IMG/VR virus record: IMGVR_UViG_3300034105_002327
Span: 1-42,561 of that record
Direction: 5' to 3' (one strand)
DNA length: 42,561 nucleotides
DNA from: a virus
Part shown: in pieces, positions 277 to 10,301 of the stretch
Position numbering within the stretch: the stretch's first letter is position 1
Layout: each line of letters begins with the position of its first letter
The notes under the pieces: model-generated
What the model was told of the DNA's origin: nothing
Database searches by the model: none
The model's input: the letters and a program-made list of their open reading frames with translations, nothing else
Position numbers and translations under genes: made by a program

Positions 277-420
277 ATGGGAAGAAAAAAAATATACAAA
301 ACTGTTAAAGAACAAATCGAGGCTAGAAAGGCCCGTCAGATGAGGTACTATGAACGAAACAAAGAGTTAGTCAAGCAAAAAAATATGAGGAGATATTATG
401 AAAAATACTGTAATAAATAA
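277..420 (+). CDS. Small basic protein, 47 aa
   Basis: The product is a short, Lys/Arg/Tyr-rich protein beginning MGRKKIYKTVKEQ and continuing with a helical stretch that includes RQMRYYERNKELVKQ. Such small basic proteins with a KARxMRYYxxNKE pattern occur in viral genomes, but I know no established function; nucleic-acid binding is a guess from the charge. I chose the internal ATG at 277 because it follows a TATACTTATA motif and the upstream extension (from 232) is hydrophobic and low-complexity. It overlaps the following HNH gene by 23 bases, suggesting coupled translation. It is one of the few plus-strand genes in a minus-strand region, which fits a mobile endonuclease cassette. Confidence 0.6.
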   Translation: MGRKKIYKTVKEQIEARKARQMRYYERNKELVKQKNMRRYYEKYCNK

Positions 421-1090
421 AGAAGAACTTTCCGATCTTATCGGGAAAGGATACAATTCTGTTCAGATAGGAACCTATTTTAATAGACATCCAACTACGG
501 TGAGATATTTCATAAAAAAATATTCACTAAAATTAAATTTCACCTCGCTCACTCCAATCGCAAAAGAGAAATTAATAATGCTCATTGAAAAGGGATATTC
601 GGCGTATGATATATCCGAAGAACTTAAACGGAGTAAAACTACAGTGCGATGGTGGTTGAAAAAATACGGGTTGAAGATCAATTGCGGGGCAATGTGTACA
701 ATCAAAACGGGCATCTGTAAATTTTGTAGCAAATTATTTAATTACAGAACTAAAAAAATGTACTGTAGTGTTCGTTGTCACTCTCAGATGAAAGTCAAAT
801 TAATAAAAGAATCTATTAAGATTGGAACTTATCCATCTGTTCCTACGAGAAGATTTATATACTCAATGCTATGTGAAGATTTTGGGAATAAATGTTCTTT
901 GTGTGGATTGAGCGGTAACGATTGGAATTCTAAACCAATAAGACTTTGGGTTGACCATATTGACGGTTGTGCTGCCAACAATTCATACCCAAACTTTAGA
1001 TTAATTTGTCCAAACTGTGATTCTCAACTTGATACATGCCGAGCAAAAAATAAAGGCAAGGGGAGAAAATCTCTTGGATTAAAATGGTAG
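398..1090 (+). CDS. HNH endonuclease with two N-terminal HTH repeats
   Basis: This 230-residue protein probably is a free-standing homing-type nuclease. Two similar helix-turn-helix units lie at about residues 8-45 and 57-93 (GYNSVQIGTYFNRHPTTVRYF and GYSAYDISEELKRSKTTVRWW share GY..., TTVR... and KKY). A Cys cluster (CKFCSKLF and CSVRCHS, about 105-130) looks like a zinc ribbon. The C-terminal part has KCSLCG, VDHIDG and LICPNCDSQ, the cysteines and central His of a zinc-bound HNH domain. A strong Shine-Dalgarno sequence (GAGGAG, 5 bases before ATG) stands out because most other genes here lack one. Its last six bases overlap the 3' end of the convergent tRNA at 1085, a typical niche for phage homing endonucleases. 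Confidence 0.85.
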   Translation: MKNTVINKEELSDLIGKGYNSVQIGTYFNRHPTTVRYFIKKYSLKLNFTSLTPIAKEKLIMLIEKGYSAYDISEELKRSKTTVRWWLKKYGLKINCGAMCTIKTGICKFCSKLFNYRTKKMYCSVRCHSQMKVKLIKESIKIGTYPSVPTRRFIYSMLCEDFGNKCSLCGLSGNDWNSKPIRLWVDHIDGCAANNSYPNFRLICPNCDSQLDTCRAKNKGKGRKSLGLKW

Positions 1091-1178
1091 TCCTAGAGGG
1101 AATCGAACCCCCGCTCGGCACTAATCAGGTGCGCACAGTTTATAAGGCTGTCGGTGCTTCCAGTTACACTATAGGACC
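1085..1178 (-). tRNA. tRNA with long variable arm, anticodon probably UAU
   Basis: Acceptor strands GGTCCTA and TAGGACT pair, discriminator A and CCA are encoded, and the T-arm (GGGGG/CCCTC around TTCGATT) is good. The anticodon arm reads ACAGC-CTTATAA-ACTGT with one C-A mismatch, giving UAU (Ile, AUA). However, a long variable arm (GCAC/GTGC) makes it class II, which is normal only for Leu, Ser and Tyr. Identity is therefore uncertain. Confidence 0.7.
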
Positions 1179-1196
1179 AAAAATATAAAGAACGAG

Positions 1197-1270
1197 GAAG
1201 GCACATATTGCGGTTCGTGTCCTTCGGAGGAAAGCCTACCCGTTACCTCCGTGTGATCAATTCATCACAC
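1197..1270. ncRNA. Three abutting hairpins, candidate structured RNA
   Basis: Three perfect or near-perfect stems follow each other with no linker: 1197-1225 (GAAGGCAC with GTGTCCTTC, one bulged base), 1226-1250 (GGAGG/CCTCC, 15-base loop) and 1251-1270 (GTGTGAT/ATCACAC, 6-base loop). The stretch is in the non-coding gap between a tRNA and the 1323-1574 gene. No U-tract follows, so a simple terminator is unlikely. No known family is recognised. Confidence 0.45.
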
Positions 1271-1322
1271 CCTTTTCTTGATTAAGATAGTGGCAGAATT
1301 TTATCTAAAGTCAATAACTTTC

Positions 1323-1574
1323 TTAATCTTTCTGCTGACCAAACATCAGTTTGTTGGCAACAGCATCAATATTATGATATGCTTGGCTGATAAGATCAAT
1401 CATCCAAGGTTCCAGCTTTACGTTTTCAGATTGAATGATTTCTAACATCTTTTCAGATTTTTGATTCAATCCATTCAACTGTGTGGTTGTCATTTGTTCT
1501 TGCTTTTCTGGATTAAGTTCTACTATTTCATCCATCACTTCTTTGATAAGATTTTTGAGTTCTGATTTCTTCAT
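1323..1574 (-). CDS. Small conserved-type phage protein, 83 aa
   Basis: The product is a short, probably all-helical protein. Its N-terminus (MKKSELKNLIKEVMDEI) matches a pattern that recurs at the start of many small proteins of T4-like phages, often virion-associated or of unknown role. The rest (KQEQMTTTQLNGLNQKSEKMLEI is split here only for description) is Gln/Glu-rich and amphipathic, without a catalytic motif. A TATAAATATA sequence (sense TATATTTATA) ends 7 bases before the ATG. It is a single-gene unit: the gene upstream on this strand ends in a terminator at 1605-1634. No function can be assigned. Confidence 0.65.
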   Translation of the reverse strand: MKKSELKNLIKEVMDEIVELNPEKQEQMTTTQLNGLNQKSEKMLEIIQSENVKLEPWMIDLISQAYHNIDAVANKLMFGQQKD

Positions 1575-1658: not shown

Positions 1659-3632
1659 TTATGGCTGTGGAGCCTTGTATCCTTTGGCAATGATGCTTGG
1701 GCTCTTGTTATTCAAGTTTGTGATCAAACTCAAATTACTCAAGTCAACATTTCCACCAGACAATACTGTAACAGCATTAACAGCGCGGAAGTTTGCAGCA
1801 GGAACAAAATCCCCACCAACAACAACATTGAATGTATCAGCGACTACTGGCAATATACCAGTTGTAATAACATCGAATGTACTTTTTACGGTTGCATTAG
1901 CAGCGCGAAGAGAAACAAGGTTTAAAGTTGTTTCTTCGGTGATTGTGGCAGTACCGGCAGTACCAACATCAACTGTGATGCCACCAAAGCCGTTGCCAGC
2001 ATTTGATAGCGTCAATCCAGTTCCAACAAAGTTTGATGCACCCAAGGCATATACCTTTGTGTCAACCGCTTGAGCGATTGCTCCAGCAGAAGTAACTGTT
2101 AGTGTGCCACCCGTGGTTGTTGAGCCGAGAGTCACTGCGCCCGTTGATGCAACAGAAGCGTTGCCAGTTGCAGTTGTGGATATAGACAATGCACCGTTGT
2201 TGGTAAACACAACATCATTGCCAACGACTGTGTAATTTCCAGCCGAGTTTGTGGCTGCACCAAGTGTTATATTTCCAGCACCCGCAACAGAAACCAATGA
2301 GCTATTAACTACACCAGTTGTTGGAGTTTGAAAAATATAATCAACAGAACGCAATGTCAACTTTGGAGTGTTGACAACGTTCAGCTGTGTGGCTGCATCT
2401 TCAAAGATCAAGGCTTCGCCGGTAGCAGATACGCTAACTGGACCAAAACTGTGTTGTCCTTTGTCGATAGTAACATTTCCAGCAGTTGCGGTGAAAGATG
2501 TTCCGCCATAAACAAAGATTCTGGACGAAGTGTCAGTCACGGCGGCACCAGTAAAAGAAGCACCAGCCAAACCTTCAACTTGCACCTTGCCCAATATCAA
2601 ATTGCCACCAGCAGATACGCTAGTTGCACCAACACCAGAATTGGTGACATTTACGGCAAGAGATGCGGGAGCGGATATTTGTACTGTGCCATTACCAACT
2701 GCGGTAACAGAAGGCGTACCAGCACCAGAACCAACATTAACAGTGACGTTTGTGCCAGTTACGGTTGTGTTGCTTGTGCTGATACGATCGGCTAGAATTG
2801 TTCCAGCCGTGACGTTCAGCGTCTTGGCTTGTATTGTGCCAGTAGCAACCGAAGAAAACGCACTTGTAGAATTTCCATTGACCACTAGGTTATTGGTGAT
2901 AATTGTGTTGTTGCCAGCAGAACCAATTGTAGTTGTTCCAGTTGGATTATTGATAGTCAAATTGCCAGCGATATAAGCCATACCAGCAGAACCCACAGTA
3001 ACATTACCATCAGCATTGAGCACAAGATTTCCTTGAGACAATACACCATTGATTGTGATGTTCTTGGAAACAAGAGTAATATTTTCGCCAACTGCAATGA
3101 TTGCACCATTGTTGATGGTTGTATTACCAGCAACAGGAACCAGTCCGTCTTGGGACGGAAGAAATCCATTTTGCTGGAAATAAAAACTAGCAAATGATGG
3201 ATTGTCGGATGTGCTCAAGCCCAAACGATTGACATCAATTCGAGCACTGCTACCAATCAAAATGCCATTTGGATTCAGAACATATACATTACCGTTAGAG
3301 GAAAGTGTACCGTTGATGGTTGAAGATGCTCCACCAGCAACAATGTTTAATACAGATGCATTATTGGAAGGAAGTGTATAGTTTAGTGCATCTCCAATAG
3401 CAATAGTATCCGTGCCACTTCCAAAGTTCTGCCATGTAAGCACAGACTTGTTTGGAGCGACGATACTAAGAGTAGTACCTGCACCTGTAACTGTTACACC
3501 CGCAGTTGTTTGTAGGTTTGTGGATGTAATGCCGGGAATGGCAAATACACTGGTCACAGTGACCACAAACAGCATCATAGAAGCAAAGAGCTTCACAAGC
3601 AGCGAGTTATTTTGTGTGTTATTATATTTCAT
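1659..3632 (-). CDS. Secreted filamentous-haemagglutinin (TpsA)-like protein
   Basis: The 657-residue product has a clear signal peptide (LLVKLFASMMLFVVTVTSVFA, residues about 11-31), then a TPS/haemagglutination-activity-type domain: residues about 35-190 include LTWQNFGSGTD, NGNVYVLNPNGILIGSSA and IDVNRLGLSTSD, matching the NPNGI-(F/I)G pattern of that family. The remainder is a low-complexity Thr/Val/Asn/Gly-rich series of short beta strands (for example NLTINNPTGTTTIGSAG), as expected of a right-handed beta-helix. Known TpsA proteins are exported through an outer-membrane TpsB partner; none is seen in this window. The protein is short for the family and has no obvious C-terminal anchor. 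A host-surface or virion adhesin role is inference. It is followed by a terminator and stands as a single gene. Confidence 0.8.
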   Translation of the reverse strand: MKYNNTQNNSLLVKLFASMMLFVVTVTSVFAIPGITSTNLQTTAGVTVTGAGTTLSIVAPNKSVLTWQNFGSGTDTIAIGDALNYTLPSNNASVLNIVAGGASSTINGTLSSNGNVYVLNPNGILIGSSARIDVNRLGLSTSDNPSFASFYFQQNGFLPSQDGLVPVAGNTTINNGAIIAVGENITLVSKNITINGVLSQGNLVLNADGNVTVGSAGMAYIAGNLTINNPTGTTTIGSAGNNTIITNNLVVNGNSTSAFSSVATGTIQAKTLNVTAGTILADRISTSNTTVTGTNVTVNVGSGAGTPSVTAVGNGTVQISAPASLAVNVTNSGVGATSVSAGGNLILGKVQVEGLAGASFTGAAVTDTSSRIFVYGGTSFTATAGNVTIDKGQHSFGPVSVSATGEALIFEDAATQLNVVNTPKLTLRSVDYIFQTPTTGVVNSSLVSVAGAGNITLGAATNSAGNYTVVGNDVVFTNNGALSISTTATGNASVASTGAVTLGSTTTGGTLTVTSAGAIAQAVDTKVYALGASNFVGTGLTLSNAGNGFGGITVDVGTAGTATITEETTLNLVSLRAANATVKSTFDVITTGILPVVADTFNVVVGGDFVPAANFRAVNAVTVLSGGNVDLSNLSLITNLNNKSPSIIAKGYKAPQP

Positions 3633-6513: not shown

Positions 6514-6657
6514 TTAATAATTTCTGGTATTTTGTTGTTTTACAAGTTGTTTTGCCATTTTACCTATTTTAGTTGGTGAAATTCCTGAATAAAATGCATC
6601 AACAATTTCTTTCATTGATACTCGTTTAATTTTCTTAGATGTTTTTTTCTTTGACAT
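6514..6657 (-). CDS. Small basic protein, 47 aa
   Basis: This short frame starts MSKKKTSKKIKRVSMKEIV and ends VKQQNTRNY. It has a strongly basic N-terminal tail followed by a segment (MKEIVDAFYSGISPTKIGKMAK) that resembles a small helix-turn-helix, which suggests nucleic-acid binding; that is inference. A TATATTTA sequence precedes the ATG by about 6 bases. It lies between the Ala/Val-rich gene and the tRNA array, in a region otherwise without a gene. Confidence 0.55.
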   Translation of the reverse strand: MSKKKTSKKIKRVSMKEIVDAFYSGISPTKIGKMAKQLVKQQNTRNY

Positions 6658-6721
6658 ATCTTTAAATATATACACATCATTGCGATTATTATGTTAATAA
6701 ATTATTGTGTATTGACATAAA

Positions 6722-9874: not shown

Positions 9875-10301
9875 ATATAATATATATAGTATATATTATA
9901 TCAAAACTTTATTATAACTCATAAAATTAATTGAATAGGTGTAGTTTTACTTTATATAGCTACACTATAGCGAGTTTCTTAGTTACGCATAAATTCCAAC
10001 ATGTTATTATTTTTCCATTTAACATATTGTTATGAACCTAGAGGCTTTTCGTTGCTTATTTTTCCGCTGATGGTTTAACCCCATGCTCGTACCGGAAAGG
10101 AAAAAACTTTCCTACACTCCGAGCTGCTATTCAAAATTAATTTGAGTCGGATAGGAATTGATACCTATTGATGACATTGAATCTGACCCGCTCTATTAGG
10201 TAGTCATCGCTTCGTTTCAGAGGCACAGCTTTATGTACACTATACTGTGCGTAATAGAACTTCTCAAGGCTGCATGTCCTTCCACGCTGCCGCTCAAAAA
10301 T
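9875..10301. other. 427-base non-coding stretch with several hairpins
   Basis: No credible gene is present. Perfect hairpins are GTGTAG/CTACAC (9939-9965), GGAAAG/CTTTCC (10094-10112), ATAGG/CCTAT near 10150-10170 and GCACAG/CTGTGC (10223-10250). The stretch lies directly 3' of tRNA-Arg on the minus strand. It may encode a large structured RNA; no known family could be confirmed by eye. Confidence 0.35.

Follow-up and report, generated by a model that had tools for sequence, protein, structure and literature searches.

The tRNA cluster of phage T4 also encodes the small stable RNAs C and D, which are stable RNAs other than tRNAs. More generally, phage tRNA islands are known to hold large RNAs of obscure role, to which the module described here adds a very small one. 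GOLLD and ROOL are structured non-coding RNAs of phages, often found near tRNA islands (PMC12286853), and theta ribozymes fold as nested double pseudoknots with their cleavage site at the 3' end of a tRNA (PMC10879173). In HK022, the sites putL and putR are about 70 nt long and form two stem-loops, with putL lying just downstream of PL (PMC9378689). As for the external transcribed spacers (ETS) of tRNA transcripts, a figure legend in a 2021 review states that no stable 5' ETS has been reported (PMC8166272).

The window analysed here, the whole stretch of 42,561 bases from a virus record, has 24 tRNA genes, every one on the minus strand (ARAGORN). Between tRNA-Ile(UAU) and a small gene, an 83-aa ORF without Pfam or PHROG match (E <= 0.001), lie three hairpins (Table 1), which a sequence-only reading had described as perfectly abutting. 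Both the position and the abutment were confirmed: the three stems are found exactly, with zero bases between them, in the predicted folds of both strands. On the opposite strand, the HNH endonuclease gene runs antisense and extends as far as the 3' end of tRNA-Ile. Elsewhere in this phage genome, positions 1659-3632 (minus strand) encode a protein of 657 aa that combines a TPS (two-partner secretion) domain with DUF5649 repeats.

Table 1. Positions of the hairpin module and its neighbours in the window
Feature	Position	Strand	Remarks
HNH gene, 690 bases	398-1090	+	plus-strand neighbour
tRNA-Ile (UAU)	1085..1178	-	ARAGORN; Rfam tRNA 42.6 bits; gene downstream of the hairpin module
T-rich spacer CTCGTTCTTTATATTTTT	1179..1196	-	resembles the predicted 13-nt tRNA leader of element-free L036
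Hairpin C, 5 bp + bulged A + 3 bp, 12-nt loop	1197..1225	-	covariation
Hairpin B, 5 bp, 15-nt loop containing ACGG	1226..1250	-	central pair A-U in 4/8, U-A in 4/8
Hairpin A, 7 bp, 6-nt loop	1251..1270	-	three pairs with both-sided changes among relatives
Constant 5' tail AAGAAAAGG, 9 nt	1271..1279	-	identical in 8/8 distinct sequences
Predicted transcription start	1279	-	position 36 from first T of TTGAC; from start-codon spacing at G001 sites
-10-like sequence CACTATC	1286..1292	-	putative; by-eye alignment with other motif sites
Promoter-like 17-mer TTGACTTTnnATAAAAT (-35 and A/T-rich spacer)	1298..1314	-	invariant save two n positions, 8/8 elements
83-aa ORF, no family	1323..1574	-	upstream neighbour; bait for relatives

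The 74 nt of the three hairpins fold to -24.6 kcal/mol on the plus strand (z -2.98; equalled by 2/200 shuffles) and to -25.5 on the minus strand (z -2.97; equalled by 1/200 shuffles, or, with 1000 shuffles, z -2.80 and seven equally good). Among 14,164 sliding windows of 74 nt, 0.68% on the plus strand reach <= -24.6 and 0.66% on the minus strand reach <= -25.5, and at least 24 separate places fold to <= -25.6. As about 0.7% of windows fold as well, energy does not single out this site, and we rejected stability alone as proof of an element. It is the comparative evidence that singles it out.

Relatives were gathered by a search with the 83-aa ORF, which led to 12 IMG/VR records, and with a relaxed loop pattern, whose 13 matching stretches added one new record (L028). 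The element recurs in 13 other IMG/VR records, and the 14 including the window give 8 distinct sequences. In 8 of the 12 records, the hairpins come directly after the 83-aa ORF; in L009-L012, further genes intervene (a metallophosphoesterase and a glycosyltransferase by Pfam in L012), and the hairpins follow those genes. In an alignment of the 8 sequences (A6), 99.3% of 150 cells are standard pairs, the one non-pairing cell lying in a bulged stem of hairpin A in L009, and pairing falls to 38-55% when the partner is shifted by 1-3 columns. Five pair positions have changed on both sides, giving 13 cells against a shuffled mean of 5.1 (0/500 shuffles reach 13), with at least one both-sided change in each of the three hairpins. 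A6 was fitted to the structure of the model; a plain MAFFT alignment (A4) yields the same 13 cells. Two further measures were not significant, the number of pairs with a both-sided change being reached by 77/500 shuffles and that of further pair types by 439/500. In hairpin C, one A-U pair has changed to G-C and one G-C pair to G-U.

The minimum-energy folds of the 8 cores have z-scores of -2.39 to -3.83 (1 to 20 of 1000 shuffles as good). Both joints abut with zero nucleotides in 7/8 of these folds and in 8/8 rows of the aligned model; the fold of L003 has its third stem shifted, together with a G-U pair. While the stems drift with compensatory change, the abutment, the 9-nt tail and 11/12 loop positions of hairpin C remain constant, the loop (GAACCGCAATAT, at 1216-1205) being the same in 8/8 sequences except for one C/A position. 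The sequence-only reading had taken the site for a compact RNA rather than chance and had proposed a covariation search in related phages. That search found the pairing conserved, contrary to one of the outcomes named there as refuting, and the pairing and zero-nt abutment are kept in relatives while stem sequences change, which bears out this view. The conserved abutment also supports its suggestion that the stems can stack coaxially. Judged by covariation, the hairpin module is a conserved, real RNA structure in a group of uncultivated bacterial viruses, on a base of one narrow clade, 8 distinct sequences and, by our reckoning, about five independent pair changes.

Two additional contacts were considered. 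Some folds predict a closing helix, AAGAA/UUCUU, which would give a four-way junction. We consider it unsupported, because neither strand varies, by eye, among the eight sequences (save a G-A mismatch in L006) and because UUCUU sits in a spacer that is also present without the module (L036). A loop-loop kissing interaction of CGG (hairpin B) with CCG (hairpin C) lies beyond the reach of covariation, because both are invariant.

The RNA is most likely encoded on the minus strand. Two one-sided changes, in hairpin C of L003 and hairpin A of L011, read as G-U pairs on the minus strand but as A-C on the plus strand, and the minus strand folds better in 8/8 distinct sequences. The tRNAs and the 83-aa gene also lie on the minus strand, and the HNH gene on the plus strand. 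The sequence-only reading was made on the plus strand, and neither the promoter motif nor the position at the head of a predicted pre-tRNA was part of it. Its remark that there is no U-tract holds for the minus strand; on the plus strand it does not, as CCTTTTCTTG comes after the 1251-1270 hairpin, which is flagged as terminator-like. An intrinsic terminator (GC stem and immediate U-run) was flagged on the plus strand only.

The promoter-like 17-mer precedes the element in 14/14 records, and the -10-like sequence reads CACTCTC, CACGATC or CACTGTC in relatives. In a 297-kb relative (G001), the motif has 36 sites at <=2 mismatches, compared with 3 for the reversed pattern; in the window it is not clearly enriched (9 vs 5 reversed at <=3 mismatches). 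At 21 of the 29 G001 sites examined, a start codon stands 34-38 nt from TTGAC, as against 817/10,754 control positions, for which the rule differed slightly in asking for ATG or GTG and 20 open codons. The window has an ATG at the same distance from site 42519 (minus strand) and none at site 39499. This spacing suggests leaderless mRNAs, and by the same spacing the hairpin RNA would start at about 1279. Hairpin A would then begin 9 nt after the start, and the module would measure 78-84 nt from the predicted start to the end of hairpin C (14 records). Between TTGAC and hairpin A, there are no gaps in any of the eight sequences (44 columns). A likeness of CTCTTAC, in L009-type sequences, to the lambda boxA motif was discarded; CTCTTAC stands ahead of the predicted start, and the window has a different sequence there. 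G001 187352 (minus strand) and L079 have a G+C-rich stretch after the promoter motif, with no start codon where one usually stands. This is perhaps another non-coding RNA, to which a permissive Rfam search gives sub-threshold matches only.

To the other side of the hairpins, tRNA-Ile(UAU) comes next downstream in 14/14 element records, with L004, L005, L007, L008 and L028 assigned by sequence identity, and the order promoter motif, hairpins, tRNA-Ile also holds in 14/14. The distance from hairpins to tRNA varies from 16 to 38 nt, whereas that from promoter to hairpins is constant. In six sister records, a related promoter-like sequence leads, through a predicted leader of 12-13 nt, to tRNA-Ile(UAU), with no hairpins between (L136 assigned by sequence only). 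Their promoters keep TTGACTT and have partly diverged in the remainder, with at least two positions differing from the 17-mer, and no R1 (covariance model) match better than E 5.7 was found at those of their loci that were searched. The leader of L036 (GTTCTTTACTTTT) resembles the end of the spacer in the window (GTTCTTTATATTTTT); the other sister leaders (GTTAGTTGATTT) have no such match, making one of three distinct element-free leaders that resembles the spacer. Given the likeness in L036, the module looks inserted at, or deleted from, the transcript start. On this comparison of loci, it is an optional part at the head of the predicted pre-tRNA, one that a single clade carries and that a sister clade lacks at the corresponding place. 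Since six sisters have the promoter-tRNA unit without hairpins, the module is probably not needed for tRNA expression.

The tRNA-Ile of the window is a 94-nt form common to the sister clade (in L034, at 10035-10128). It seems to have a long variable arm and differs from the 74-77-nt form of the eight other element loci scanned (L001, L002, L003, L006 and L009-L012). The hairpins are kept across this swap. We rejected a pairing switch between leader and tRNA. Such pairing occurs in 4/8 full-length minimum-energy folds (L001, L002, L006 and L009), but the complementarity of the leader to its own tRNA-Ile is not above that of shuffles (z -0.85 to +1.52). The best duplex partners of the leader also differ from locus to locus.

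Run over 7 whole element-bearing records, the covariance model R1 gave a single strong match per record. Its 15 weak matches (E >= 0.03) span 33-97 bases, and the promoter motif is present in 8 of the 14 inspected. Three records with more distant 83-aa proteins (59%, 59% and 47%; among the matches listed) have no R1 match at E <= 1 at their loci and, searched whole, a single match (E 0.28) over promoter sequence. A profile search with the 83-aa protein returned at least 8 relatives, with no element outside the clade among the matches listed. In the best 80 of 145 relatives found by a glycosyltransferase profile, R1 gives four matches, all in already-known records, the next having E 0.28. L016-L018 match the pattern of hairpin B without any other part of the element. 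One record with a related glycosyltransferase (L099) carries a permuted tmRNA at 811-1243 (Rfam tmRNA_permuted, 130.9 bits).

A scan of the window at Rfam 15 gathering thresholds reported tRNAs only, and a permissive search of 1080-1330 (E <= 5) added to the tRNA three far-below-gathering matches within 1087-1149, none of them on the hairpins. In five relative loci, no Rfam family, including GOLLD and ROOL, matched the element at gathering threshold. Neither 900-1700 nor 1180-1320 has a blastn match among INPHARED phages. In one genome each of 84,980 bacterial and archaeal species, there was no match to the exact pattern and no relative of the 83-aa ORF. Among the top-ranked matches in the literature on phage tRNA arrays, tRNA-cluster RNAs and structured phage RNAs, we found no description of the element, and sections of PMC4496710 and PMC3014915 hold nothing decisive on it. 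The three-hairpin element looks undescribed.

What might such a module do? We put a rough probability of 0.35 on the reading that it is a small RNA with a U-rich tail, freed by RNase P from pre-tRNA-Ile, whose constant tail and loop bind a partner. RNase P trims the 5' ends of pre-tRNAs. The promoter would drive a pre-tRNA-Ile with the hairpin module as its 5' leader, and RNase P would cut this leader off. The product would be a compact small RNA with AAGAAAAGG at its start and the U-rich spacer (CUCGUUCUUUAUAUUUUU) at its end, protected by three hairpins that may be stacked. The constant 5' tail and hairpin C loop of this RNA may be the working surfaces, binding host or phage RNA or protein; both are near-invariant where stems A and B vary, and this points to their being recognised by sequence. 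The tRNA would serve as a 3'-end-forming device under a shared promoter, and the module would be a functional 5' ETS. We favour the freed RNA because the tRNA is apparently independent of the module, because tail and loop are constrained in sequence, because the spacer would supply a 3' tail rich in U, and because a put-like element would meet few intrinsic terminators downstream. Against this reading, the complement of the hairpin C loop (a 17-base pattern), sought in 7 phage records, mostly partial, gave only the element and one 3-mismatch site, compared with 3 control matches. In addition, the module occurs only with this promoter and tRNA, as a single copy per record (7 element-bearing records searched whole), and a free small RNA would not need to be so tied. 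More tentatively, the module may be a mobile RNA cassette set exactly at +1 of a phage tRNA promoter, and so the first stable, functional 5' ETS, acting in trans. A phage RNA would here borrow a tRNA promoter for its beginning and RNase P for its end.

The constant spacing from promoter to hairpins also fits a cis element that acts on RNA polymerase. In this account, which we consider possible if rather doubtful, the hairpins, once folded in the nascent RNA, would work like HK022 put, remaining on the polymerase and allowing readthrough of pauses and terminators along the tRNA island. Tandem hairpins do stand at the predicted 5' end of a phage transcript, at a distance fixed from the promoter and not from the tRNA, and in the 297-kb relative the next such promoter motif lies 4.3 kb downstream on the same strand, with seven tRNAs, including tRNA-Ile, between. 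The fixed spacing and constant link to one promoter are why we keep the put-like model close behind the freed RNA. However, there is little to read through: L002 has one weak terminator-like site on the strand in the 4.3 kb to its next promoter motif, and in L012 (2.9 kb) and L006 (4 kb) the sole such site falls within tRNA-Ile itself, in scans that are blind to Rho-dependent stops. Element-free L034 likewise has no terminator on the strand in 4 kb, so terminators do not separate the two groups. The sister phages also keep the promoter-tRNA unit without the module, which is present in a single copy vs the two put sites of HK022. The absence from the sisters also weighs against a protective or processing leader, an unlikely reading in which the hairpins would do no more than guard the 5' end of the pre-tRNA, or offer it to a nuclease such as RNase P or RNase E, and would have no role of their own. 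Stable hairpins are a common means of stabilising a 5' end, and the module adjoins tRNA-Ile(UAU) in all 14 records. Yet a plain shield would have no use for a near-invariant 12-nt loop and tail, the distance to the tRNA is variable, and the leader pairs with the tRNA in only half of the folds, at the shuffle-level complementarity given above.

Two other explanations are much less probable. The hairpin at 1251-1270, followed by CCTTTTCTT, could be a terminator for plus-strand transcripts such as that of the HNH gene, and it is flagged as such in the window and on the matching strand in L002, L006 and L012. We think this very improbable: the two one-sided changes and the better minus-strand folds point to the other strand, and one hairpin would suffice, whereas three are conserved, together with a near-invariant loop, and the U-tract is poor. 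Moreover, the gap between tRNA-Ile and tRNA-Met is <370 bases in seven of the eight other loci, too short for the 690-base HNH gene, and the longer gap of L006 has no ORF >73 aa. Least probable of all, hairpin C might be an inverted remnant of a tRNA. Its GGAnnCGAACC is the reverse complement of the tRNA T-arm consensus, with nine matching positions by eye. In 8/8 loci, the mean complementarity to the phage's own tRNAs exceeds the shuffled mean, although at z -0.37 to -2.31 only and by a duplex score that ignores each RNA's own folding. A permissive Rfam search (E <= 5) of the plus strand at 1195-1270 gave no tRNA match.

Other non-coding candidates lie near these loci. At 7030-7293 in L006, just before tRNA-Met, there is a candidate phage-encoded RNase P RNA, with the same match in the L007 and L008 records. 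It scores 29.0 bits with Rfam RNaseP_arch (gathering 84), with E 7.6e-7 for a 291-base stretch chosen after the first match, 2.7e-4 for 826 bases and 0.014 over four loci, and it has GAGGAA..CCCC and AACAGAAGGGCGGCUA blocks. The candidate is below the cut-off in 18/18 records, and RF00010 gave no match in those records. A second conserved non-coding stretch of 84-109 nt (~94% identity) is found at 208-100 (minus strand) in the window, 8248-8356 in L009 and 8415-8498 in L012; it has a possible GATTGTTGC/GCAACAAT stem and, in L009 and L012, reaches up to or into the start of tRNA-Met. Between tRNA-Ile and tRNA-Met, L006 (about 6566-6663) and L012 (8304-8404) share a conserved non-coding stretch at 80% identity, and L001, L003 and L006 have a conserved non-coding GAGAATA...TATTCTC stretch of ~300 nt by eye after tRNA-Ile. 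These last two stretches are combined differently from phage to phage and have no Rfam match in L006.

With a candidate promoter, clear boundaries and natural relatives with and without it, the module lends itself to tests of function by presence and absence. Should RNase P free it, phages would have a new route to a regulatory RNA; should it act on the polymerase, factor-free antitermination would extend beyond lambdoid phages.

How does the module compare with the known systems? Like T4 RNAs C and D, it would be a non-tRNA RNA encoded in a tRNA cluster, a likeness by description with no relation claimed. GOLLD and ROOL are described as large (many GOLLD exceed 800 nt) and as forming cages, whereas the element has 78-84 nt and no Rfam match. 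The theta (HDV-like) ribozymes are also small structured RNAs adjoining phage tRNA genes, but they consist of pseudoknots, while the element has three plain covarying hairpins on the 5' side of the tRNA. By description, HK022 put is again alike, a phage RNA of ~70 nt (vs ~80 nt) with tandem stem-loops after a promoter, which for the element is a predicted one. It differs in having two stems, in an early operon and at two sites, where the element has three abutting ones, would head a tRNA transcript and occurs once. The first stem-loop of put has a triplex, in a V shape, compared with three stems traced by covariation here, and put suppresses termination via the beta' zinc-binding domain. Finally, E. 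coli 3' ETS-leuZ is likewise a non-tRNA part of a pre-tRNA, freed by processing and acting as an RNA, although for the element such release is only predicted; leuZ is a 3' spacer, whereas the element, structured and conserved, would be a 5' spacer.
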